Source: Picochlorum sp. 'celeri' (Eukaryota > Chlorophyta > Trebouxiophyceae). Taken from it: DNA of 64,000 nt. This document shows, piece by piece, positions 1 through 64,000 of this stretch; position 1 is the first letter of the stretch, and every line of letters begins with the position of its first letter. The translations under genes were made by a program, and so were the position numbers. Below the pieces are notes generated by a model that was not told the origin of the DNA, did no database searches, and saw only the letters and a program-made list of their open reading frames with translations. The DNA lies in NCBI GenBank assembly GCA_010909725.1, contig JAACMV010000008.1:982172-1046171 (forward strand), given 5' to 3'.

Positions 1-310
1 CATATGGCCCATAGCATGAGTGGACCCATCTATTCTGCTGCAGTACTCATTAGGACATGCATGCTGCCATATGCGATGCAGCAAAGATTGAGACCACATT
101 CGTATATCCTAGACGACTATGTATATTATTAGACCATACACAATGTGTTTTGAACATTTTCGGCTCAATCAGATGACGCAAGTCGGAAATCGATGAGACT
201 CGAGATTTGAAAAGGGTCCTTTAAAAAGGACATTTCAAATACGCGGATGTGACAATCATTATGATCCAAGACCAGTCTACTACTCCAAAACTGATATACA
301 TATTTGTATA
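1..310. other. window-edge flank, promoter of helicase gene
   Basis: I see no coding exon here on either strand. The last 30 bases before the helicase start are AT-rich, with a TATA-like stretch (tatacatatttgtata) running up to the ATG at 311. The rest is unremarkable and may hold the end of a gene lying outside the window. Confidence 0.4.
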
Positions 311-2596
311 ATGGGCCATCGGTATAGGTCTTCTGATCGAGAGGAAGGAAGTAGCAGTCGGTTTTTGAGGCCTGGTGAAGGAAGGAAAAGTGCTTTTGGA
401 GTGTCGTTCCAGGATGTAGAGAGGCGGGGTTCTGATAATGCGTCTTCAATTCCTATATTCAATAGATACAGAGGATTGAGGATTGAGGAGCAGCAGCGGC
501 TGCTACCAATCTTCAAATATAAAAGGGAGATTCTGTATTTGGTGGAGAAACATGCCACGTGTATCATTGTCGGAGAAACTGGATCAGGAAAGACGACACA
601 AGTTCCTCAATACCTCTATAGTGCTGGCTGGGCGCCGATAGGAAGTATGATTGCGTGCACACAGCCACGGAGGGTGGCAGCCATGTCTGTAGCCGCTCGG
701 GTAGCAGAGGAAATGAATGTTGAGTTGGGGCAAGAGGTTGGGTTCGCTATTCGATTCGAGGATGTTTCGAGCCATCAGACTAGGATCAAGTTCTGTACAG
801 ATGGTGTGTTGATCAAGGAAATGGCGACGGACCCACTCTTGTCCAAGTACTCTGTCGTCATGGTCGATGAGGCTCACGAGCGATCTGCATCAACCGATGT
901 TTTACTAGGACTTTTGAAAAAGATACAGAAGAGACGGCCGAGTCTGAGAATCATTATATCTTCGGCTACTATTGACGCTGAAAGGTTTGCCTCTTTCTTC
1001 TTTGACGCGTCAACGAGCATTTCTCAAGAAGAAGCCCATGCTGATCGTCCTTCTGGCATGCCTGGGATGTTATCTGTTCAGGGCCGAACCCACTCTGTTC
1101 AGGTCCATTACTTGGAAAGGCCTTGTCAGGACTATGTGCAAACATCTGTGGAAACGGTGTATAAAATTAATGATGCTGGTTTGCCCGGAGATATTCTAGT
1201 CTTCTTGACAGGCCAGGAAGAATGTGACAAGGCTGTATCCTTGGTCCAAGAATCCAATCATTCCCAGTATACAGAAGGGCGCAGTCAGAGGAGAAGCGGC
1301 ACCAGACTTTATCCAGTCGCCTTATATTCAGGCCTTTCTGCAAAGCATCAGATGGAAGTCTTTGAGTCTCCTCCGAGGAACTGCCGCAAAGTTGTATTTG
1401 CTACAAATATTGCAGAGACGTCTGTCACAATAGACGGGATCGTGCACGTTGTGGATTGCATGTTCTCGAAACAGAGGAATTTCGATCCATTTATTGGCTT
1501 AGAAAGTTTACTTGTGGCTCCGATAAGCAAAGCTAGTGCAGTACAGCGATCTGGTAGGGCAGGGAGAGTGAGGCCTGGCTTTTCGTACCGATTATGCACA
1601 CAGGAGCATTTCGAAAATCTCGACACCGTAGAGATTCCGGAACTTCAGAGAAGTGATTTGACATCAATAGTATTACAACTCAAAGGCCTTGGGGTTGATA
1701 ATATGTTGCATTTTTCATGGCTGACTCCTCCACCATCAGAGTGTATGGTGAGATCATTGGAAAACCTCCATGCTCTGGGAGCACTTGGCGACGATGCAAA
1801 ACTTACACAATATATGGGAAGGTATATGAGTGAGATTTCTGTGGAACCCCAACTTTCTAGGGCGCTTTTGGTATCTTGGTCCGCAGGCTGTGTGTACGAA
1901 GTCGCAACAATATCTGCCATGTTGAATGTTCAAAGCATTTGGGCATCAGGGAGGAGGAGGGATCTTGACAGCGCGAAATCTCAATTTGCTGTCGAGGAGG
2001 GAGATTTAATAACCTATTTAAATGTATGGAAAGCTTGGGAAGAAAACAAGAGGAGCAAAAGTTGGGCGATTAAAAATTTTGTGAGCCACAGATGTCTCAT
2101 TCGAGCATCTGATATCCGAGACCAAGTCTTGCGACAGATCATACGCCTGAAGAAACAAAGTTCTCCGGACGACCCAATTTTCTGTAGAAGATCTTTACAA
2201 GATATTAGAGATAATATTCTTCTGCGCAAAGATCTGAGCCGTGAGGAAATACACGATCGCATAATTGCCATTCAAAAATCACTTGCAGCTGGACTCTTTC
2301 TGAATTCTGTGCAGCTTAGATTTGGGCCTCGAGGTGAGCCTGAGATTGACAATGAAGGAAACTCAACGTATAGATTCCTGAGAAACACTGGAGATCCTCT
2401 GACGGAAATGTCCAGGCTTCGAATCCACCCATCATCTGTCATGTACGGGCGCCAGCCCCAATGGCTCTGTTTCTACATGGCACAACAGACTGGGAAACAC
2501 AGTGTCGACATGCAAGAGGTTCACTGTGTGAAGCCTGAATGGCTCGCAGACGCAGCGCCAAACTTTTTCAATGCATCCAAAAAGAAAACTATCTGA
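311..2596 (+). CDS. DHX35: DEAH-box RNA helicase, DHX35 type
   Basis: Single-exon gene of 761 residues for an ATP-dependent RNA helicase of the DEAH family; DHX35 is a spliceosome-associated member, so a nuclear pre-mRNA processing role is expected. Helicase motifs are in order: GETGSGKTT (Walker A, ~residue 95), TQPRR, DEAH box (DEAHER), SAT, FLTGQEE, and QRSGRAGRVRPG (motif VI), followed by the HA2/ratchet region and OB-fold with IHPSSVMY near the C-terminus. Length and the segment VFNRY-like/LPIFKYKREIL before Walker A match DHX35 better than Prp22 or Prp43, which carry extra N-terminal domains. The start is the first ATG after an AT-rich promoter; no intron is needed. The stop lies only 12 bp from the left end of Fanzor element 1, so its 3' UTR must run into the element. 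Confidence 0.9.
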   Translation: MGHRYRSSDREEGSSSRFLRPGEGRKSAFGVSFQDVERRGSDNASSIPIFNRYRGLRIEEQQRLLPIFKYKREILYLVEKHATCIIVGETGSGKTTQVPQYLYSAGWAPIGSMIACTQPRRVAAMSVAARVAEEMNVELGQEVGFAIRFEDVSSHQTRIKFCTDGVLIKEMATDPLLSKYSVVMVDEAHERSASTDVLLGLLKKIQKRRPSLRIIISSATIDAERFASFFFDASTSISQEEAHADRPSGMPGMLSVQGRTHSVQVHYLERPCQDYVQTSVETVYKINDAGLPGDILVFLTGQEECDKAVSLVQESNHSQYTEGRSQRRSGTRLYPVALYSGLSAKHQMEVFESPPRNCRKVVFATNIAETSVTIDGIVHVVDCMFSKQRNFDPFIGLESLLVAPISKASAVQRSGRAGRVRPGFSYRLCTQEHFENLDTVEIPELQRSDLTSIVLQLKGLGVDNMLHFSWLTPPPSECMVRSLENLHALGALGDDAKLTQYMGRYMSEISVEPQLSRALLVSWSAGCVYEVATISAMLNVQSIWASGRRRDLDSAKSQFAVEEGDLITYLNVWKAWEENKRSKSWAIKNFVSHRCLIRASDIRDQVLRQIIRLKKQSSPDDPIFCRRSLQDIRDNILLRKDLSREEIHDRIIAIQKSLAAGLFLNSVQLRFGPRGEPEIDNEGNSTYRFLRNTGDPLTEMSRLRIHPSSVMYGRQPQWLCFYMAQQTGKHSVDMQEVHCVKPEWLADAAPNFFNASKKKTI

Positions 2597-2612
2597 TATT
2601 TATTAATGTACA

Positions 2613-2731
2613 GTAAAATTTTTTAATTTCGTTTGTCGGACGGAATGTTCCAAACTTGGAAGTTCCATCGTTCTCTCTGCTGTATCTTGAAGCATAGCGT
2701 CTGCAAAAAGCAGCCGACTTACATGCCGAAT
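2613..2731 (-). ncRNA. candidate Fanzor guide-RNA scaffold, copy 1
   Basis: In TnpB and Fanzor loci the guide RNA (omegaRNA/fRNA) is made from the 3' end of the nuclease gene and ends at the element boundary, with the guide lying just outside. Here the ~120 bp after the Fanzor stop hold a strong hairpin at 2639-2669: a 7-bp stem (one G-T pair), a 1x2 internal loop, a 5-bp stem (TTCCA/TGGAA) and a 4-nt loop. The element end follows ~30 bp later. The exact RNA ends, and how far the RNA reaches into the coding region, cannot be read from sequence. The assignment is an inference from family architecture. Confidence 0.45.
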
Positions 2732-5083
2732 TCATTGCCGTGTTGATGTCCTTTGCCTTTTCCTCGTCCTCTTGAAAGCCTTGATTCGAGATCCATTGTG
2801 ACACTTTTCCAAAAACAAGTCTTTGATATTGATACTGGCATTGACATCACGGTCCCAAACATTTCGAATGCATTCATTGTTGTGACAACGTTTCATCCTG
2901 AATTGTTTGTTGTACTGTTCCATTGCCTCATGACAGCAAGAACAGAGTTTGGACGTATTGAATTCATTAACCAACACAACTGTGGCACATTCCGATACCT
3001 TGTTGAACAGTTTTGTGCTCATGATAGGAGCAGTGCCCCTCATTGTGCCGTTATTATCACCATCACCATACGCCACGATGACTCTCTTCTGTGCCTCTTT
3101 GTTTCTTGTTCCACAGATTCGAGCAACCACATCCTCCATGGCCGACTTTTCCTTGCAAAATTTCCTCATCTTCTGTTTCTGATACCATTTTTTGTCATCG
3201 AAGAAGGCTTGTTGCAGTTGGGGCCACATAGAAACTTGGAATCTGTAACTCTCAAAAATTTTCTCAAAATCTACTGTCTTGCATGTTGGCACAGACACCC
3301 ATGCAGGACAGTATTCAGACATCCTTTTCTTCATTTTGGCTGTATACTGTTTCTGACTAGATAAGAAGATCCATTCTCCTGACCCCAGAGAATCACTTTT
3401 ATATCTGTCTTCCACCTCTGCATGACGACCATTTTCTGCATTCCACTTTGCATGGATCTTTTGCTTTTCCGAATCATGAAAAACCCACGTGGCCGCTGAC
3501 TTTTTACCTGGGTCCAAACCGACAATGATACAATCTGTGTGATATATACCATGGTCATCTTTGCGTATGCCAGCCAACCTTTTGATCCTTTCTGTGATGA
3601 CTGTCTTGTCTTTGTTTTTAGCCTTTCGTTTCTGTAGAACGTCCTTTTGTGACTTTAATGTATGCAACAATGGCTTCAGTAGAACATAATGTATGGTGGA
3701 AATGTCACCAAGGAGAATACGCAAAGGGTCATATCTGATCTTTTTTGCAATAATGTTGGTTGCAAACATCCCACAATAGGTGGCCCACAACTTTGCTTTG
3801 ACGTAATTCATATCATCCTGCAGATGGATTATCTTGCATTCCAGATCCGACTTCACAGTGTCTATAACAGCAGAAACAGAGACGCCATCAGTGCATATAG
3901 AGCATCCGAATCTGAGTTTCGTTTGGTCCTTCATGTGCTTTTTTTTCAATACTCGCTTCATGTTGAATATCGATTTCCAATAATAATACTTATTTGTATA
4001 GTCATCCAGTGCTGGACAGTCATCTACTATCTTTCTGATATATGGATATTTCTTTGCGAGTTGCTCAACCATAGTCTTCACTGCTGTGCTGGAGATATGG
4101 ATATGCTTTGGTTTCCAGGCCATCTGTGGACACAGACAAAATGTCCATTTCTGTCTTCCAAGTATACTCTTCTTCCCTTCAAACTCTCCGTTTCTGAACC
4201 TCTGTTGCAGTGATTCCACGAATGGCTCCAAGTGACCCAAAATGAAGAAGCAAATTCTGGATTTCTCAGAAAGAGTTGTCGTCTTTGGCACCAACGAGCA
4301 AATGATATCCAAGGCTCTCTGTGCTTCATCCCATACTGACACATCAGACGCAAATTCTGTCAATGATGGTCTACGTTCAACAATATCACTGACTTTCGTC
4401 CTCTCCCAGAATGCCTGTGTGATTGCAGAAAATACTTGTCCAAACTTCTTCTTTGACAAATTTTTGATTTGGTCAAAGTCCGTGTCGTCTCGAAATAGCA
4501 AATATCTCAGATACCGTAATGCATATACATTAAGATTGGTTTCCAAATGCGTGGTATGCATAACAGACGACTGCTGGGCCATCTGCTCCATTGTTTTGCC
4601 TCTCCAAGAAGAGAGACAACCCTGTGGCCAATCTGTTTTTAACCCAGTCTCCTCACAATATTCCTTGCACAAGTCGCGCAAGTTGGTATCAACATCCTTT
4701 CTCTCCTTCTTTTGTTGCAAATGATTAGCAAGGTGTCTGTAGATTTTGTTGTAGAGTTCGTAGAGAGTTTCATCTTTGTGGTCTCTAAATGCCCCACCGT
4801 TCCTCAATAACAATAGATGCATGACATGATGCACATGAATCTGTAGTCTACTCAGATAGAATACACATTCTTCAATTTCGCGTTGAACCACTTTGAACTT
4901 ACAAAAAGGCTGCAAAGTGCACTTGACGACTGTCTTATTGAAAAAACGGTCTTTATCCTTCTTTATAGCCACATCCAATCGAGTAAACTTCTTTTTCTTC
5001 ACCTTTTTCGATGGTGTGGCGGACACCTTTCTCTTTTTTTTCATTTTGAAATGACACGGTTGGCGATGGCGGCTCGACTTCAT
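2732..5083 (-). CDS. fanzor: Fanzor (eukaryotic TnpB-like RNA-guided nuclease), copy 1
   Basis: Encodes 783 residues from the first ATG at 5083. The frame is open to 5125 but without an upstream ATG. The C-terminal part is the TnpB/OrfB RuvC nuclease: VGLDPGKKSA with D524, VNEFNTSKLCSCC with E707, and WDRDVNASINI with D746, so all three metal-binding acids are present. A four-cysteine zinc finger (CSCC ... CHNNEC) sits between the second and third motifs, as in TnpB. The N-terminus has a dense basic run (KMKKKRKVS ... KKVKKKKF) that reads as a nuclear localisation signal. The ~500-residue N-terminal half, far longer than bacterial TnpB, is typical of Fanzor proteins and should bind the guide RNA and target DNA. 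No intron or disabling change is seen, so it is probably active. Antisense frames here are shadows. Confidence 0.9.
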   Translation of the reverse strand: MKSSRHRQPCHFKMKKKRKVSATPSKKVKKKKFTRLDVAIKKDKDRFFNKTVVKCTLQPFCKFKVVQREIEECVFYLSRLQIHVHHVMHLLLLRNGGAFRDHKDETLYELYNKIYRHLANHLQQKKERKDVDTNLRDLCKEYCEETGLKTDWPQGCLSSWRGKTMEQMAQQSSVMHTTHLETNLNVYALRYLRYLLFRDDTDFDQIKNLSKKKFGQVFSAITQAFWERTKVSDIVERRPSLTEFASDVSVWDEAQRALDIICSLVPKTTTLSEKSRICFFILGHLEPFVESLQQRFRNGEFEGKKSILGRQKWTFCLCPQMAWKPKHIHISSTAVKTMVEQLAKKYPYIRKIVDDCPALDDYTNKYYYWKSIFNMKRVLKKKHMKDQTKLRFGCSICTDGVSVSAVIDTVKSDLECKIIHLQDDMNYVKAKLWATYCGMFATNIIAKKIRYDPLRILLGDISTIHYVLLKPLLHTLKSQKDVLQKRKAKNKDKTVITERIKRLAGIRKDDHGIYHTDCIIVGLDPGKKSAATWVFHDSEKQKIHAKWNAENGRHAEVEDRYKSDSLGSGEWIFLSSQKQYTAKMKKRMSEYCPAWVSVPTCKTVDFEKIFESYRFQVSMWPQLQQAFFDDKKWYQKQKMRKFCKEKSAMEDVVARICGTRNKEAQKRVIVAYGDGDNNGTMRGTAPIMSTKLFNKVSECATVVLVNEFNTSKLCSCCHEAMEQYNKQFRMKRCHNNECIRNVWDRDVNASINIKDLFLEKCHNGSRIKAFKRTRKRQRTSTRQ

Positions 5084-5179
5084 ACCAATCCAAGGTTCTA
5101 GAAGATTCGGATTGACCAGAGTCAAATGGACTAGATGTTACATTCCTTAATTAAACGAAATTTAAAAATTTTGGAGTAT

Positions 5180-6289
5180 TTATTTCTGCTTCCCAACAAC
5201 ATGGAACCCCCCAACATCTCTCTTGACAAACTCAAAAAAGCAATAGACGAGAGGAACAGTTGCAAGATGCCACAATGCGTGGGCGTCTAGAAGATCTGCT
5301 ATCGGTGGGAAATCCAATATTTCTAACAAAACCGCAGCATTAACACAGGCAACAAAGAGCAATAGATATCTTCTTCCAGGATGCTGCTTGCCATGTTTTG
5401 AAAACATGGCCCATCCGATCCAAACCAGACTTTGCAGCACCCCTGCTGCCACACAGAGACCTACATGGTATCCGTAATCAAACTTGACGTAATGCATCAT
5501 GTACATATGACGGAGATAGAAAAGAATCAGACCAGCGGCAAACAGCATCCTACTTGTCTGAGAAGTCTGAAGCAAGTCAGAAAAGGCTCTGCTAAAACTA
5601 AGGTATGCATCAAAAATCATCACTGCGCCCGCAGAGAAATAATCTAATCTTTCGGTGATTGCCGTATCCCTGCTGTGGAAGACGGCCGACCAGATCCATG
5701 CATTGCTTGCAAGAATAAAGTGGCCATACCACAAGAAGTGATGGCTAAAACCCATCCTCTCCACACCTGTGACAGGTTCCATAGACCAAACGTACTTCCG
5801 TAGTAATAATATACAGTTTACATTAGCACCCAAGTTCAACAACGATAACACCACTGAAGCTGGCTCTTGCATGCCCAAGATCCTCACAAATGGCCATTTC
5901 CCATGGTACTTGTACACAGTCTTGTCCTGATCATCTGCGGTGCCCTGACGCCTCTTATCTCCCTCAATCTTCCACATACATTTGTATCGGCAATCACTCT
6001 CGCACCCCCACCGCATTATACGACGAAGAATGAATTCATCAAGCCTGGACAACCTGTGACCAGAATCATCTCCTCTGGCACAAAATGGGCTCTCAGAAAC
6101 GCCCCGTGCAACATCTTCCACACCACCTTTTGGTAATCCACCTCTACGGCATCCCACAAGACAGGACTGATAGATTGCACTTTGATCACCCTGACTTGCC
6201 CTTCCCAAAGCAGGCAGCAGTGTCATGAGCAGTAAGATGCGCCACACTGTACCCGATATGAAGCCTTCATACCCCACCATCGACTTCAT
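5180..6289 (-). CDS. PGAP3: Per1/PGAP3 GPI-anchor remodelling phospholipase
   Basis: A 369-residue multipass membrane protein of the Per1-like (CREST) family, which in the ER/Golgi removes the sn-2 acyl chain from GPI-anchored proteins. It begins with a signal peptide (hydrophobic run WRILLLMTLLPALG), then the cysteine-rich lumenal part (CLVGCRRGG, WGCESDCRYKCMW), then the family signature HGKWPFVRILGMQEPASV and about seven membrane segments. The conserved histidines of the hydrolase fold are present in VFHSRDTAITERLDYF (first core helix pair) and LDFPPIADLLDAHALWHLATVP (near the C-terminus). Length is close to human PGAP3 (320). No intron. The start follows from the signal peptide. Its stop is 7 bp from Fanzor element 1. 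It is divergent from the mS26-like gene, with ~220 bp between the starts. Confidence 0.92.
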   Translation of the reverse strand: MKSMVGYEGFISGTVWRILLLMTLLPALGRASQGDQSAIYQSCLVGCRRGGLPKGGVEDVARGVSESPFCARGDDSGHRLSRLDEFILRRIMRWGCESDCRYKCMWKIEGDKRRQGTADDQDKTVYKYHGKWPFVRILGMQEPASVVLSLLNLGANVNCILLLRKYVWSMEPVTGVERMGFSHHFLWYGHFILASNAWIWSAVFHSRDTAITERLDYFSAGAVMIFDAYLSFSRAFSDLLQTSQTSRMLFAAGLILFYLRHMYMMHYVKFDYGYHVGLCVAAGVLQSLVWIGWAMFSKHGKQHPGRRYLLLFVACVNAAVLLEILDFPPIADLLDAHALWHLATVPLVYCFFEFVKRDVGGFHVVGKQK

Positions 6290-6507
6290 ATGCCTTGAAA
6301 AATCAAAATAATTTAGGTTTAGGGAATTTGCCAGTGCTTTTGTGGACGTCTTTCCAAATTAATCAGTGTGGGTTACAGCACCATGCACATGCGAGTCTCT
6401 CTGCCTTTTTTTAAGGAAAGGAGGTCACTGTGGAACGAGTGTCATGCATGTTCACCTGCCTCTGAAGAGTTGTTAAATGATAAAATAAACAATTGATTGC
6501 CTTAATA

Positions 6508-7219
6508 ATGGGTGGTTGTCATCATGCTGGAAAATTGCTGCGACAGGTGGTGACCCAACGCCACGGAGACAATGTCGGTCGTGCCTTGTCCGATGCAGGG
6601 ATCAAGGGTACAGTCGAAGCAGTATTTGGATCTAGGTCGTTTTATTCTTCTCGATATCCCTCCGATGATGCAGTCAGTGTGGAGGCCACGAAGACCAGGC
6701 GTTCGTCCATAGAGTATGGGAGGGAAAGGAATGCGTATGAGAGGGATTTGTCCAACTTGAGAAAGAAATGGTACGAGGAAGTGCACTCCAAGAGAATACA
6801 GGAGGAGGAGGAGAAGGAGAAACTCATTCGAGCTCAAGAAGCAAGAAAAGAGGAGAGGGCGAGAGCCCAGGCTGAAAGGAATGCGCGCATGGCGATGGAG
6901 TTGGATGGCCAATTCCAGAAAATAGAAGAGGCTAGAAGGCAAAAGGTCGAAAGAAGAATAGAGAATGTGCGCAGGGAGTTTACACGCCAGTCAGTAATAG
7001 CTGCCTTCCGGGAGAAGAGGTATGTGTGATGCTCATGTTGCCTTATTTTTCTCTTCCTTTAAGACATCGATATGTTTTCTTGCCAGCAGGAAAGAAGTTC
7101 TATTGGAACAAAGCAGGCATTGGATTGCGACGGAAGCAGAATTGGAGTCAAGGATAGATGCAGCAGTTGAAAATCCAGAGCCTCTCTGGGTTTCTGAAAA
7201 GGTGGCCAGAAAGGCTTGA
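6508..7219 (+). CDS. mitochondrial ribosomal protein mS26-like
   Basis: Two exons: 6508-7019 and 7087-7219 (or from 7090, which removes one residue), with a 67-70 nt intron (donor gtatgt, acceptor gccagcag), giving ~214 residues. The protein has a basic, serine/arginine-rich N-terminus suited to a mitochondrial presequence, then a long charged helix rich in E, R, K and A (residues ~75-165), then a C-terminal stretch (TEAELESRIDAAVENPEPLW) resembling the end of MRPS26. The family forms a long helix on the mitochondrial small ribosomal subunit. Similarity is in pattern rather than strong motif, so another coiled-coil mitochondrial protein is possible. I chose the ATG at 6508 because the frame upstream has only non-ATG codons. 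Confidence 0.5.
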
Positions 7220-16961: not shown

Positions 16962-17068
16962 TGATCCTACCAGGGATCGAACCTGGAATCTCCTGTTCAC
17001 TTCCGCAGAGGGCATGCCAACCCTCGTTCCACCGTAGACAGGCGCCTTATCCATTGGGCCATAGGACC
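16962..17068 (-). tRNA. tRNA-Arg(ACG) with a 34-nt intron
   Basis: The minus strand folds as a complete cloverleaf. The acceptor stem is GGTCCTA with TAGGATC, and the D arm is GCC-CAATGGATAA-GGC. The anticodon stem is CCTGT/ACAGG with loop CTACGGA (anticodon ACG), and the T arm is TCCAG-GTTCGAT-CCTGG with the GTTCGAT loop. The 34-nt intron (16998-17031) lies one base 3' of the anticodon, the canonical nuclear tRNA intron position. The mature length is 73 nt with discriminator A. A34 would be edited to inosine to read CGN codons. CCA is not encoded. The gene lies between the E2 stop and the TrpE 3' region. Confidence 0.95.
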
Positions 17069-39696: not shown

Positions 39697-39722
39697 TGAT
39701 TACAGTGCAGTATGTTATTACA

Positions 39723-39841
39723 GTAAAATTTTTTAATTTCGTTTGTCGGACGGAATGTTCCAAACTTGGAAGTTCCATCGTTCTCTCTGCTGTATCTTGA
39801 AGCATAGCGTCTGCAAAAAGCAGCCGACTTACATGCCGAAT
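39723..39841 (-). ncRNA. candidate Fanzor guide-RNA scaffold, copy 2
   Basis: Identical in sequence to the copy 1 region, including the hairpin (39749-39779). Only the DNA beyond the element end differs, so a guide RNA reading out of this copy would carry a different guide (starting ataacatactgc on the minus strand, versus cattaataaata for copy 1). Inference from TnpB/Fanzor architecture; no RNA evidence. Confidence 0.45.
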
Positions 39842-42193
39842 TCATTGCCGTGTTGATGTCCTTTGCCTTTTCCTCGTCCTCTTGAAAGCCTTGATTCGAG
39901 ATCCATTGTGACACTTTTCCAAAAACAAGTCTTTGATATTGATACTGGCATTGACATCACGGTCCCAAACATTTCGAATGCATTCATTGTTGTGACAACG
40001 TTTCATCCTGAATTGTTTGTTGTACTGTTCCATTGCCTCATGACAGCAAGAACAGAGTTTGGACGTATTGAATTCATTAACCAACACAACTGTGGCACAT
40101 TCCGATACCTTGTTGAACAGTTTTGTGCTCATGATAGGAGCAGTGCCCCTCATTGTGCCGTTATTATCACCATCACCATACGCCACGATGACTCTCTTCT
40201 GTGCCTCTTTGTTTCTTGTTCCACAGATTCGAGCAACCACATCCTCCATGGCCGACTTTTCCTTGCAAAATTTCCTCATCTTCTGTTTCTGATACCATTT
40301 TTTGTCATCGAAGAAGGCTTGTTGCAGTTGGGGCCACATAGAAACTTGGAATCTGTAACTCTCAAAAATTTTCTCAAGATCTACTGTCTTGTATGTTGGC
40401 ACAGACACCCATGCAGGACAGTATTCAGACATCCTTTTCTTTATTTTGGCTGTATACTGTTTCTGACTAGATAAGAAGATCCATTCTCCTGACCCCAGAG
40501 AATCACTTTTATATCTGTCTTCCACCTCTGTATGACGACCATTTTCTGCATTCCACTTTGCATGGATCTTTTGCTTTTCCGAATCATGAAAAACCCACGT
40601 GGCCGCTGACTTTTTACCTGGGTCCAAACCGACAATGATACAATCTGTGTGATATATACCATGGTCATCTTTGCGTATGCCAGCCAACCTTTTGATCCTT
40701 TCTGTGATGACTGTCTTGTCTTTGTTTTTAGCCTTTCGTTTCTGTAGAACGTCCTTTTGTGACTTTAATGTATGCAACAATGGCTTCAGTAGAACATAAT
40801 GTATGGTGGAAATGTCACCAAGGAGAATACGCAAAGGGTCATATCTGATCTTTTTTGCAATAATGTTGGTTGCAAACATCCCACAATAGGTGGCCCACAA
40901 CTTTGCTTTGACGTAATTCATATCATCCTGCAGATGGATTATCTTGCATTCCAGATCCGACTTCACAGTGTCTATAACAGCAGAAACAGAGACGCCATCA
41001 GTGCATATAGAGCATCCGAATCTGAGTTTCGTTTGGTCCTTCATGTGCTTTTTTTTCAATACTCGCTTCATGTTGAATATCGATTTCCAATAATAATACT
41101 TATTTGTATAGTCATCCAGTGCTGGACAGTCATCTACTATCTTTCTGATATATGGATATTTCTTTGCGAGTTGCTCAACCATAGTCTTCACTGCTGTGCT
41201 GGAGATATGGATATGCTTTGGTTTCCAGGCCATCTGTGGACACAGACAAAATGTCCATTTCTGTCTTCCAAGTATACTCTTCTTCCCTTCAAACTCTCCG
41301 TTTCTGAACCTCTGTTGCAGTGATTCCACGAATGGCTCCAAGTGACCCAAAATGAAGAAGCAAATTCTGGATTTCTCAGAAAGAGTTGTCGTCTTTGGCA
41401 CCAACGAGCAAATGATATCCAAGGCTCTCTGTGCTTCATCCCATACTGACACATCAGACGCAAATTCTGTCAATGATGGTCTACGTTCAACAATATCACT
41501 GACTTTCGTCCTCTCCCAGAATGCCTGTGTGATTGCAGAAAATACTTGTCCAAACTTCTTCTTTGACAAATTTTTGATTTGGTCAAAGTCCGTGTCGTCT
41601 CGAAATAGCAAATATCTCAGATACCGTAATGCATATACATTAAGATTGGTTTCCAAATGCGTGGTATGCATAACAGACGACTGCTGGGCCATCTGCTCCA
41701 TTGTTTTGCCTCTCCAAGAAGAGAGACAACCCTGTGGCCAATCTGTTTTTAACCCAGTCTCCTCACAATATTCCTTGCACAAGTCGCGCAAGTTGGTATC
41801 AACATCCTTTCTCTCCTTCTTTTGTTGCAAATGATTAGCAAGGTGTCTGTAGATTTTGTTGTAGAGTTCGTAGAGAGTTTCATCTTTGTGGTCTCTAAAT
41901 GCCCCACCGTTCCTCAATAACAATAGATGCATGACATGATGCACATGAATCTGTAGTCTACTCAGATAGAATACACATTCTTCAATTTCGCGTTGAACCA
42001 CTTTGAACTTACAAAAAGGCTGCAAAGTGCACTTGACGACTGTCTTATTGAAAAAACGGTCTTTATCCTTCTTTATAGCCACATCCAATCGAGTAAACTT
42101 CTTTTTCTTCACCTTTTTCGATGGTGTGGCGGACACCTTTCTCTTTTTTTTCATTTTGAAATGACACGGTTGGCGATGGCGGCTCGACTTCAT
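39842..42193 (-). CDS. fanzor: Fanzor (eukaryotic TnpB-like RNA-guided nuclease), copy 2
   Basis: 783 residues from the ATG at 42193; identical to copy 1 except for four substitutions in the first part of the RuvC region, after the first catalytic Asp: A to T in NGRHAEVED, M to I in TAKMKKRM, C to Y in VPTCKTV and F to L in TVDFEKI (copy 1 residue first). RuvC acids D524, E707 and D746 and the zinc-finger cysteines are unchanged, so both copies should be catalytically able. The lack of any synonymous difference over 2.3 kb shows that the copies separated very recently or are kept alike by conversion. The gene has no introns, as expected for a mobile element. Confidence 0.9.
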   Translation of the reverse strand: MKSSRHRQPCHFKMKKKRKVSATPSKKVKKKKFTRLDVAIKKDKDRFFNKTVVKCTLQPFCKFKVVQREIEECVFYLSRLQIHVHHVMHLLLLRNGGAFRDHKDETLYELYNKIYRHLANHLQQKKERKDVDTNLRDLCKEYCEETGLKTDWPQGCLSSWRGKTMEQMAQQSSVMHTTHLETNLNVYALRYLRYLLFRDDTDFDQIKNLSKKKFGQVFSAITQAFWERTKVSDIVERRPSLTEFASDVSVWDEAQRALDIICSLVPKTTTLSEKSRICFFILGHLEPFVESLQQRFRNGEFEGKKSILGRQKWTFCLCPQMAWKPKHIHISSTAVKTMVEQLAKKYPYIRKIVDDCPALDDYTNKYYYWKSIFNMKRVLKKKHMKDQTKLRFGCSICTDGVSVSAVIDTVKSDLECKIIHLQDDMNYVKAKLWATYCGMFATNIIAKKIRYDPLRILLGDISTIHYVLLKPLLHTLKSQKDVLQKRKAKNKDKTVITERIKRLAGIRKDDHGIYHTDCIIVGLDPGKKSAATWVFHDSEKQKIHAKWNAENGRHTEVEDRYKSDSLGSGEWIFLSSQKQYTAKIKKRMSEYCPAWVSVPTYKTVDLEKIFESYRFQVSMWPQLQQAFFDDKKWYQKQKMRKFCKEKSAMEDVVARICGTRNKEAQKRVIVAYGDGDNNGTMRGTAPIMSTKLFNKVSECATVVLVNEFNTSKLCSCCHEAMEQYNKQFRMKRCHNNECIRNVWDRDVNASINIKDLFLEKCHNGSRIKAFKRTRKRQRTSTRQ

Positions 42194-42285
42194 ACCAATC
42201 CAAGGTTCTAGAAGATTCGGATTGACCAGAGTCAAATGGACTAGATGTTACATTCCTTAATTAAACGAAATTTAAAATTTTTACG

Positions 42286-43250
42286 TTATTTCATCTTCTG
42301 ACGCCTGGATTTTCCTGGACGCTGTCTCGGTTTGGATCTTTTCGGATCTCCCGAGGCAGCCGAATACGCATCATTCTGCTTACTTCGCCTCTTGGGACCA
42401 CCAAATCCATACTTGGCGTCTCGCTTCGTCCTCTTCAAAGATTTGCCGCGTGCCGAAAATCTATCGCCTAATTTTTGGCCCTTTGGTTTTTTATCGCCTA
42501 ATCCCACCTCATTCAAGTCAAAGTCGCCTTCAAAATTGTTCTTGGCCCTAGCTTTCCTCATGTTTGCGACACTCTCAATAGCTTGCTTCCTCTGCTGAGA
42601 CCTCTCTTTGCGCCTCTCTGCTGCCACCTGCTTGCTGAATTTCCTACTCTCCCTTTCTTTACGACGCTGTTCAGACTCTTCTATGACTGTGCGCTCATGC
42701 ACGAGCTGCTCTTTCACTTTGGCCATGTGGGCATCAGTCTTCACCATCTCTGCAAGATAATCATCTGGCCTCCTCCACGGTATGCCCTCCTTCTCAAACT
42801 TGGAAATCGCCTCGAAGGCTGCCCTCTGTGCCTGATTGTAAAATGCCAACTCCCTTTCTAGATCATTTTCTACATCTTCAATCTCAGTTTCCTCCCTGCT
42901 CAACAACACCAACCCTTCCTTCCACATCTGGGACTGGCCTCCCCAGGAAATGTCTTTCAGGATTTCAGTCATTTTTTCCGCTGCATACACGCCGTTTTCT
43001 TCTGCCGTTGCTTCTTCGAGTTCATCTTCATCTTCTTTTTCATATTCTCCGGATATATTCTCAAGTCGCAAACGACTCTTCACCTTGGGGTCTTGCAGAG
43101 CAACTTGAATCTCCTGCGCAGCGAGTCTCGTTATGAACCACAATGCCCAATGTCGAGTATATACAACACCATACATACCTCATCTTCAGAATCATGAATG
43201 TCCTCCGAATTCTCCTCTTCCGACCAGTCTTCTTTCCTTTTCCTGGCCAT
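42286..43250 (-). CDS. EBP2: rRNA-processing protein EBP2
   Basis: Exons 43179-43250 and 42286-43113, with a 65-nt intron (gtatgt ... gcgcag), 299 residues. EBP2 is a nucleolar factor for 60S subunit assembly and 27S pre-rRNA processing. An acidic N-terminus (RKRKEDWSEEENSEDIHDSE) leads into the conserved core: ELAFYNQAQRAAFEAISKFE, GIPWRRPDDYLAEMVKTDAHM, KVKEQLVHERTVIEESEQRR. The end is a typical lysine/arginine tail (KRTKRDAKYGFGGPKRRSK ... KSRRQKMK). Its TAA is 4-5 bp from the right end of Fanzor element 2. Its start is 97 bp from the divergent SCC2 start. Confidence 0.92.
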
Positions 43251-61041: not shown

Positions 61042-64000
61042 AACCGTGAGTTCAGCCATTTCTCTGCGCAGTATTGATTGTGTAAGATTAGATCAAATCT
61101 TACACGTGTCAATCCAACATTTAAATACTAGTTTTATCGAATCAAGTCAAGGAGACGACAGAAGAAAGAAAACCAAGTAAGGGGGGTGGTTGTGGGATGC
61201 ACCTCTGGGCCTCTTGTGGTGAACCCCTTTGTTTGTAGTCGAACGTTGCACCTTTTGCTCTGTGCTTTCCACCCTTCCTTTTGTTTTTCTTTTTCGAACA
61301 GATGGATCGATTTGTCCTGCGAGCCTGGCGCGTGGCTTGGTTTTTTCTTGCCTCGGTTTGGGGCTGTGCCTGCTGTTGCAATCATCTTTTCAACTCCTTT
61401 TCTTGGTTCTTGGCGGTCTTTTGAATCTCGACTATTCGACACGGTGTCACATACTAGTAGAGCCCCATTCCACAACCAATCTATCGAGGGTGAGCTCACC
61501 TCCTTTCTTGTCACAGGCTCTTTTTGTATTGTTGTTCCAATCTGGTATACAAACGCATGGGAATACATTCTGTTTGTTCTTTGTTTTCGTTTTGATTGTT
61601 GTTGTGCAGCAAAGAGGCCTTAATTTTTATTCATTTTCTGTAGTTGTAGCTCCTGTATTCATTCATTCATCCAGGTCAGAGCAGCTCCTGTGGTGGCCAC
61701 ATTCCCTAGTCTTTTGCTGGACAGACAACACCTACTATCATTTCAATCAAAACCAGATTGATTCTGCTATATATCTTTTGTTCTGTTCATTTTGTACAAG
61801 GATATGACATACTACTAGAAATACTGCTCAAAAAGCAGTCGCGTGTCAGGACAGCAGCAGGGTGTGTTGCATGATTCCCAACAGATCTCTGTGTGTGTGA
61901 GTGTCCACATCCATCCTATATTCACACGTTGTCCTACTCCTTAGCATACGATAGAGTAGACCGATTAGAACACACTTTTTGATTATTCGTGTTATTATTG
62001 TGTTTTCTGAATCCACGAATCAGTGTGTGTGGAGTTATGTATGTATGGAGGTGTTTTGCTGTTTTGTTGGTTGAGTCTGTGGACGGTGGGTGAGCACACA
62101 TTGTGTGCTACTCCTCTCTTCGTTCTTTCTACCTCTCGAGCAGCTACAGCAGTAATTATTGTTGTTTGTTTTAGTAGTAGTAAACCAATAGTAATAGTAG
62201 TTGTAGAGAAGAAGAAGAACAAAAGGTGTAGCTCTTCTTCTTCAAAGGTTTTTTTATCCCTCTCCATCAAGAGGGTAGATAGACTGAAGGCATCGGTCCG
62301 ACAGGGTATTGGACCGATCGGTGAGGTCGGCCTCCTTTTCTTTTTCGGGCGTGTCCGTCCGTAAATGAGGACAATAAAAAAGGACGACCATGGGCCAGCC
62401 CACACGCTTTAAAACCGCTCGGCCACACTCAGCGTGCTTTTTTCATCTCCCATCACAAGAGACATTTGACCGATGGTATGGTAGTTTCACTTTTGTTGTT
62501 TCTTTCATCATCCTATCGAAGACCTCTTCTGATGGGGGAGCCTGGATATGTGGAGCACACACAGGTGGAGGAGAGAGCTGTGGAGCAGTCTTTCAACACC
62601 ACAACACAAGATCTTCCCCATTCCCACCATTCCAAGAAGCGTCGCAATTGTATATATACTATCCTACTACTATGCTGACTGCAACACATGTAGTCTAAGG
62701 AAGACAATGTGCCATGCATGATGATGATACTGAGATAGTAGTTGCTCCACCATTGGTGCAACGTTACTCCAGTGCTTGCTACAGCTTGCTTCTTGTTGTT
62801 ATTGTTGTTGTGAAGGAGGATCTTTTTCATTCATTTTCTTGTTTCATGTCTTCTATTTATTCTTTTTATTATATACTACTACTATTATACCTCCTCTCTC
62901 TATCTCATATGTTGTCTGTGTAGGGTAGCTCCAGGTTGTTCTTCTTCTTGTGTGCTTTGTTCTGTTCTGTTATTATTGGTTGGTATTATTGCTCGTGTCG
63001 ATTGTTGTTGTGCATGTTCTTATCATTATTACTAATATTATGAGATATTTACTCTCTTCTTCTTTTGATTGCTTTGCTTCTTTGTTGGTGTGTTGTCTCG
63101 TGTTGTAGCAGCAGTAGCAGTAGCAGATCTTGTGGTGTGTGTGGTGTCCGAGGAGGAGTTGTTGTTTTCACGTGGTGTGCGACGCTTTGATGAGTACTGT
63201 TTTTTAATTATACAACACACCCTTCTTTTTGATTGGCTAGGTTGGTATGTTTTTGGTGGTGGTCCCAGTCAAGTCAAGGGGGTGGTGATGGGAAGATCGA
63301 CATTCTTCTTCTTGTTGGGAGAAGCTCTCCCTCTCTTCTTCAGAAATGTGGCAGCAGACCACTGTTTGTTGTTTTGCCCTGGGTGTGCGACGTTTCTTTT
63401 TTATGATGGGTGTTTATTATTATTATTCTTTAAAATTGCTATTCTTCTTATCTTTTTACTTACTCCTCTTACTTACTTACTATTGTGTCCTTCTGTTGTT
63501 GTTGTTGTTGTGAAGAAGAAGAAGACAGAGATTCTTTTCATTCTTTGATCTTTATTTATTCTTTCCACATATATACAGTGTTATTATTATACTTCATATT
63601 ATATATCTCATATGTTGATAGATATGTTGTTTGTGGGTCTACCTCCTGGGTGTTGTTGTTGTTGTTGTTGTTGTTGTATATATAGTAGTAGTAGGTGCTT
63701 ACTATAATAATAATAATAATAATTCTTCATATTTTGTTGTATATTTTTGTTGTTTTTGTCGTGTTTTTTTTGGTTGGTGTTTTTTTGGTTAGGGTATTTG
63801 GTCTTGTTGTGGGTTGTTTTTTTGGATTTATTTTGTCTTTTTGTGATGTTTTCATATTTTTGGATTGGTTATTATTTGTTTTATTTAGAAATTGTGTTTA
63901 TTTGTCACGTGGCAGAGTGGAAGTGGTGCTACTATTGTCTTATTTACCCTCATTACCCTTGGCCACCAAGAACGACGGTGGCAGAGGGTATAGGGTATAG
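61042..64000. other. T/G-rich, gene-free, probably subtelomeric DNA
   Basis: Nearly 3 kb without a credible gene. The plus strand is strongly enriched in T and G, with many TTG/GTT runs (for example ~63490-63515 and ~63650-63677), TATTAT and AATAAT tracts (~63705-63723) and CTTCTT runs. Long open frames exist only because such DNA lacks stops; their products are Val/Leu/Phe/Cys polymers. An inverted copy of the tandem-repeat block lies near 62349-62391. The window ends with cagagggtatagggtatag, two GGGTATA units. Confidence 0.55.

Follow-up and report, generated by a model that had tools for sequence, protein, structure and literature searches.

What is the 2564-bp block that occurs twice at the end of a contig of the green alga Picochlorum celeri, how does it move, and does the nuclease that it encodes help it to spread? 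The window, i.e., the whole stretch of 64,000 nucleotides that was analysed, is C8:982172-1046171, the end of contig C8 in a genome of 27.41 Mb and 30 contigs. Comparison of the copies within the window places the block at 2609-5172 and 39719-42282, with five mismatches, no gaps, and unrelated flanks; the first-pass annotation had likewise seen two near-identical copies in unrelated flanks. We explain it best as a non-autonomous element of the Tc1/mariner superfamily (pogo-like) that carries a Fanzor1-type RNA-guided nuclease, a reading to which we give a probability of about 0.78. Behind it stand the ends of the element, TA found duplicated at one site, the motifs of a nuclease, the number of copies, and a relative with similar ends in which genes for a Fanzor and a DDE_1 transposase occur together.

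The element is about 2.57 kb long, of the terminal-inverted-repeat type, and bordered by TA on both sides when the copies are compared (2609-5178 and 39719-42288 with the TA duplications; Table 1). Its left end reads TA-CAGTAAAATTTTTTAATTTCGTTT and its right end, read inward, TA-CCGTAAAAATTTTAAATTTCGTTT. The imperfect inverted repeats of the first-pass annotation stand, but the right end lies 4 bp further out and the repeats are 24 bp long, not 20-22. A changed right tip in copy 1 (L001/2; CTCC for CCGT, read inward) had made the block appear to end at 5172; a single base is altered in copy 2 (L003/4). The stop codon of the EBP2 gene adjoining copy 2 (window 42286-42288) is formed by the TA duplication and the last base of the element, which is T there and G in most copies.

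Table 1. Features of the two element copies, in positions of the window.
Feature	Position	Strand	Basis
Element copy 1, 2566 bp, one Fanzor gene	2611..5176	-	Copy comparison
TA target duplication left of copy 1	2609..2610	.	Duplication of TA seen where the 5.3-kb version entered the deacetylase gene
TA target duplication right of copy 1	5177..5178	.	Copy comparison
Left terminal inverted repeat CAGTAAAATTTTTTAATTTCGTTT, downstream of the Fanzor gene	2611..2634	+	Identical across compared copies
Right terminal inverted repeat, upstream of the Fanzor gene; copy 1 tip CTCC	5153..5176	-	Copy comparison
Fanzor1-type gene, 759 aa	2732..5011	-	ORF, Pfam, profile search, motifs
Non-coding 121 nt beyond the stop codon; putative scaffold of a guide RNA that would continue into the flank	2611..2731	-	Two blocks common to the 6-kb relative
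Element copy 2	39721..42286	-	Copy comparison
Fanzor gene of copy 2, differing from copy 1 at four residues of the protein	39842..42121	-	Pfam, motifs
TA target duplication left of copy 2	39719..39720	.	Copy comparison
TA target duplication right of copy 2	42287..42288	.	Copy comparison

A genome-wide search with the element found at least 20 near-full copies and three partial matches, these counts being lower bounds, and 14 of the 20 near-full copies found encode all 759 residues without a stop. The end pattern, allowing up to 3 mismatches, matches 48 times in the genome, and its reversed control pattern never does. These two results exclude a chance origin of the block, and the copies bear out the claim that the element was recently mobile. 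No clean empty allele was found for any 2.57-kb copy. The TA duplication is demonstrated at one site by a 5.3-kb version of the element, inserted within the coding sequence of a histone deacetylase (L051, C15:911900-918300, at 552-5874; and C27:932120-937442), because its removal together with one TA restores an open frame through the conserved region of the deacetylase. This version is present on both haplotypes, and other deacetylase genes exist in the genome. We considered and rejected the idea that it hides a transposase: its extra 2.75 kb mostly resemble DNA beside subtelomeric copies (in segments 90-95% identical), and the open reading frames therein, which lay outside the Pfam scan, have at most 167 aa and were never assigned as a transposase. 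The element thus has the terminal inverted repeats and TA duplication of the Tc1/mariner superfamily (pogo-like) and contains no DDE transposase, which makes it a non-autonomous member by its ends.

The sole gene of the element, at 2732-5011 in copy 1 when counted from its ATG, encodes a protein whose nuclease motifs and zinc finger are intact. A number of arguments identify it as a Fanzor. First, it matches the Pfam model Cas12f1-like_TNB above the cut-off (E=4.7e-8). Second, a profile of three paralogues, compared with solved structures, has Guillardia theta Fanzor1 as its only significant solved relative (E=1.5e-6), the other 15 chains having E-values of 0.12 or worse; the single protein retrieved just two lectins from the solved structures (E 0.15 and 1.1). 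Third, it has DPG at 500, E683 six residues ahead of the first zinc-finger cysteine, C690/C693/C709/C714, and R721-D722. The motif given by Bao and Jurka for Fanzors, D-X(125,275)-[TS][TS]-X-X-[C4 zinc finger]-X(5,50)-RD (PMC3627910), is found here as D500, T686-S687, the four cysteines, and R721-D722. Another description lists DPG, a glutamate six residues before the zinc finger, and CxxC...CxxC (PMC10711439); the protein has the DPG and E683-x6-C690, and its second cysteine pair is C709-x4-C714, not CxxC as written there. Guillardia theta Fanzor1 likewise has C-x4-C in its alignment to the profile. What had been read from the sequence as a single Fanzor gene with intact RuvC D/E/D and zinc finger is supported by motifs, Pfam, and profile. 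That the protein is instead a TnpB-type nuclease of recent bacterial origin is very improbable: a weak match to a phage family labelled transposase (E=0.0024) and the naming of the Pfam model after Cas12f1-like proteins point that way, against which stand the DPG and relocated glutamate, the length of 759 aa, the best solved relative, a eukaryotic host genome, and the lack of any match in the bacterial and archaeal library NCBIfam. An AlphaFold2 model built from three sequences had low confidence (mean pLDDT 45.7, pTM 0.36), and viral contigs scanned with the Fanzor, its profile, and the transposase described below gave no confirmed relative. The same genome also contains more distant Fanzor-like genes (L056, C20:45000-48900, at 163-3225, and others on C10, C11, C14, C16, and C19), at 29-38% identity, some of them having an open frame of about 1000 codons.

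Which transposase could move the element? A 6.0-kb relative (L052, C20:33800-41000, at 689-6713) encodes a Fanzor of 809 aa, 50% identical to that of the 2.57-kb element, and an intact transposase of 893 aa (DDE_1, PF03184, E=5.7e-13); we take pogo-like to be the name for a DDE_1 transposase. Its ends differ from the 26-base end pattern by 2 and 6 mismatches and other matches in that stretch start at 8, which places the 6-mismatch end only a little above background. The end upstream of its Fanzor is 81% identical to that of the 2.57-kb element over 53 bp, and its upstream junction is CTTA, not ATA. The transposase gene is one open frame on C20 and lies in three pieces on C5; further DDE_1 genes occur on C2, C3, C22, and C23, and a genome search for PF13358 (DDE_3) gave no match. 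Since this relative with similar ends has both a Fanzor and an intact DDE_1 transposase, the 2.57-kb element would most likely be a transposase-less, internally deleted derivative moved in trans. The transposase of the relative, or close kin of it, would excise the element and paste it into TA. This agrees with the first-pass annotation, which had noted the absence of a transposase and proposed movement in trans. The ends are not internal to something larger: the 5.3-kb and 6-kb relatives use ends of the same kind. A gene-less element of 531 bp with similar ends is found on C2 and C22 (L053, C2:1321900-1323050, at 313-843; C22:1296350-1296880). We also noted a lone similar end on C3/C23 (L059, C3:1012600-1013400, at 522-544) and, within the 6-kb relative, a perfect 22-bp inverted repeat upstream of each gene (L052 3277-3298 and 6577-6598).

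The copies are concentrated towards contig ends, with nine of ten independent sites at most 62 kb away (binomial P about 4e-8, assuming 26 long contigs and with the cut-off set once the data were known). The C1 member stands for the subtelomeric group in this count, the C21 members of which lie at 96-104 kb, and the exception is C22:1203113. Two side features of the window may be recorded here: its last part (62000-64000), at the end of C8, is subtelomere-like, with low G+C, a strongly T-rich strand, and simple repeats; and Rfam finds one tRNA (16962-17068), whose 107-base match suggests an intron by its length.

Does the Fanzor contribute to the spread of the element? The junctions give a first indication. 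All 11 junctions on the upstream side of the Fanzor gene have an A in front of the TA, so the element follows ATA. These are the junctions of L001/2, L003/4, L006/7, L008/10, L009/11, L012, L013, L015, the L005/16/18 (+L014) group, the C22:14.1-kb fragment, and the 5.3-kb copy; L017 was left out, that end being lost. Downstream, L017 included, the mirror base is found at one of ten junctions (Fisher p=3.4e-5, with counts entered by hand). In the window, T follows 34.9% of the TAs, which gives 0.349^11 = 9e-6, or 5e-5 with an AT-rich background. The Fanzor of Spizellomyces punctatus, SpuFz1, is reported to require CATA, and its element to keep CA upstream of the 5' repeat (PMC10432273); the one-sided ATA resembles this target motif. 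We disfavour a palindromic preference of the transposase as the cause of ATA, since symmetrical ends should not yield a one-sided motif. The same contrast (11/11 against 1/10) weighs against seeing here an ordinary transposase-dependent element whose Fanzor is cargo without a role in spread, ATA being the target choice of the transposase and equal alleles the outcome of loss of heterozygosity or allelic gene conversion. We put this account somewhat below an even chance; the presence in the genome of Fanzor-free elements of the superfamily is in its favour, and the haplotypes, to which we now turn, bear on it in both directions.

The P. celeri assembly is described as a phased diploid of 27.43 Mb (2 x 15 scaffolds, 46% G+C, 0.8% SNP heterozygosity; PMC7225527), and many copies occur as allelic pairs. 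Both haplotypes are occupied at 7 of the nine sites that could be paired (C8/C17 twice, C15/C27 twice, C22/C2, C4/C30, C19/C11). The other two appear singly occupied: at C27:10470, the left flank is found on C15 (98.6% over 351 bp) without the element, the other flank being unaligned there, and for the fragment at C22:13.7 kb, the matches listed include none on C2. A further five copies, in subtelomeric DNA that is duplicated (C29, C13, C1, and C21 twice), could not be paired. When flanks and element are compared between alleles, gaps set aside, five pairs have divergent flanks around a nearly invariant element: L006/7 (9/2991 mismatches in the flanks, 1/2570 in the element), L008/10 (12/2989 and 0/2570, one gap), L009/11 (8/2991 and 0/2569, one gap), L020/19 (9/1500 in one flank and 0/2490), and L013/17 (46/1445 in one flank, with 14 gaps and differences mostly beyond 1 kb, and 0/2490). 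They sum to 84/11,916 in the flanks against 1/12,689 in the element, or 38/10,471 against 1/10,199 without L013/17, sums that overstate independence because the differences are clumped. Left out of them are L001/2 (0/2994 and 1/2570) and L004/3 (2/2994 and 0/2570), whose almost undiverged flanks show that long equal tracts occur, as the cargo account would have it. Against that account, guide-side differences come as close as 17-83 bp in four of the five pairs; the nearest lie at 83, 31, 23 (an indel, the first substitution being at 326), 537, and 17 bp (an indel, then 67). For L006/7, extending the flanks to 5.5 kb per side gives 47 differences in 10,994 bp against 1 in the element, and among 118 overlapping control windows as long as the element, none has as few as one difference (minimum 3, median 7.5). 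In L009/11, 36 substitutions fall in the following 3 kb of the guide side, and none in the element or in 1.5 kb on the other side.

The haplotype comparison rests on one single assembly, and the element of one haplotype might have been written into both phases by the assembler. The use of FALCON-Unzip, FALCON-Phase, and polishing with long reads only, as described in PMC7225527, and single-base indels in some copies that look like read errors, would fit such an artefact. We regard it as unlikely: in L006/7 and L008/10, both flanks still differ close to the element, and the junctions of L013 and L017 differ. Four private substitutions are common to both alleles in L008/10 and four in L009/11. 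Between sites, copies are set apart by 1 to 17 positions (L012 and L013 by one), if the rearranged L018 and the members of the subtelomeric group are disregarded. Near-identical elements and shared private substitutions imply that the alleles have a more recent common ancestor than their flanks. This pattern would be compatible with homing or with allelic conversion after insertion, and does not show that the Fanzor is its cause.

L017, allelic to L013 (C19 and C11 ends), carries a scar. The alignment opens a gap of 66 columns at the Fanzor-upstream end of L017, which on the guide side is 14 bases shorter than L013; there, read by eye, AG stands in place of the 16 bases after TA (the alignment itself splits the shortfall into gaps of 10 and 4). 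SpuFz1 is reported to cut the non-target strand after bases 16-17 (PMC10432273). The loss at a SpuFz1-like cut position is one case and possibly a coincidence. Neither an excision footprint nor simple strand invasion explains both junctions, and we rejected them.

The predicted guide-RNA scaffold is the 121 nt between the stop codon and the element end. Two collinear blocks there are common to the 6-kb relative: one behind the stop, ATTCGGNNTGTNAGTCG, and AAGATACAGNAG. Their conservation is moderate, the score of the first being reached by 19/500 shuffles. Against shuffled sequences, the putative guide RNA of the window element shows no better fold (z -0.67 and -0.53); that of the 6-kb relative folds clearly better (z -3.53, 0/200 shuffles).

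The one-sided ATA and the identity between haplotypes suggest that Fanzor-guided homing may have acted on the non-autonomous element. The process would involve 1) an RNA from downstream of the Fanzor stop codon that runs over the element end into the flank, whereby each copy would make a guide to its own empty site; 2) a cut by the Fanzor, beside NATA, at this site where the homologue or the sister chromosome lacks the element; and 3) repair that would copy the element into the cut site. We give this sequence of steps about even odds. Its strongest form, a eukaryotic RNA-guided gene drive in which the empty homologous site is cut at NATA and the element copied in with very short co-conversion, is possible but doubtful; it would explain the one-sided ATA, the double occupancy by near-identical elements in diverged flanks, and the L017 scar. 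The earlier proposal that the Fanzor may aid copy retention finds indirect support in the ATA junctions and the haplotype identity.

The element is less unusual than the first-pass annotation implied. According to PMC3627910, Fanzor1 genes inside Tc1/mariner elements, with and without transposase (SPu-1, PUl-4, PUl-1, PGv-1), have been in print since 2013. SPu-1, the SpuFz1 element of Spizellomyces punctatus, is the closest in kind: about 2 kb, one Fanzor1 gene, inverted repeats, and putative TA duplications (PMC3627910), with conserved bases upstream of the 5' repeat that agree with the target motif CATA, and non-coding ghost elements (PMC3627910, PMC10432273), which the 531-bp element on C2/C22 resembles. 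The Picochlorum element differs in host and protein, in an ATA without fixed C, in having a candidate autonomous relative, and in its phased diploid copies; guide RNA and cleavage are here predicted from sequence alone. PUl-4, PUl-1, and PGv-1 similarly combine Fanzor1, with or without a Mariner-like transposase, and TA duplications (PMC3627910), but are described as oomycete and viral elements, whereas the Picochlorum partner is a DDE_1 (pogo-type) transposase. In Auxenochlorella, a Fanzor-coding element is reported as the most abundant repeat and called uncharacterised (PMC12636532); the likeness, drawn from that description, lies in the abundance of a Fanzor element in a trebouxiophyte alga whose diploid genome is phased. 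The TnpB of IS200/IS605 has been shown experimentally to act as a retention factor and plasmid gene drive (PMC11870625). It offers the parallel of an element-encoded RNA-guided nuclease cutting its own empty site, which in Picochlorum would be the case by inference, and differs in being bacterial and moved by a TnpA transposase. Among the papers listed for Fanzor with Picochlorum, haplotype, or homing, no title or abstract opening describes the Picochlorum element.

This kind of element has thus been known since 2013, and the value of the present case lies in the arrangement of its copies on both chromosome sets. Saito et al. (2023) state that the biological roles of Fanzors remain unknown. 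P. celeri may serve as a test bed for Fanzor function, since it combines a phased diploid genome, 14 full-frame copies, a candidate autonomous partner, and a predicted target motif, and Cas9 editing of the alga has been published. The hypothesis that a Fanzor serves the retention or homing of its element would be directly testable there.
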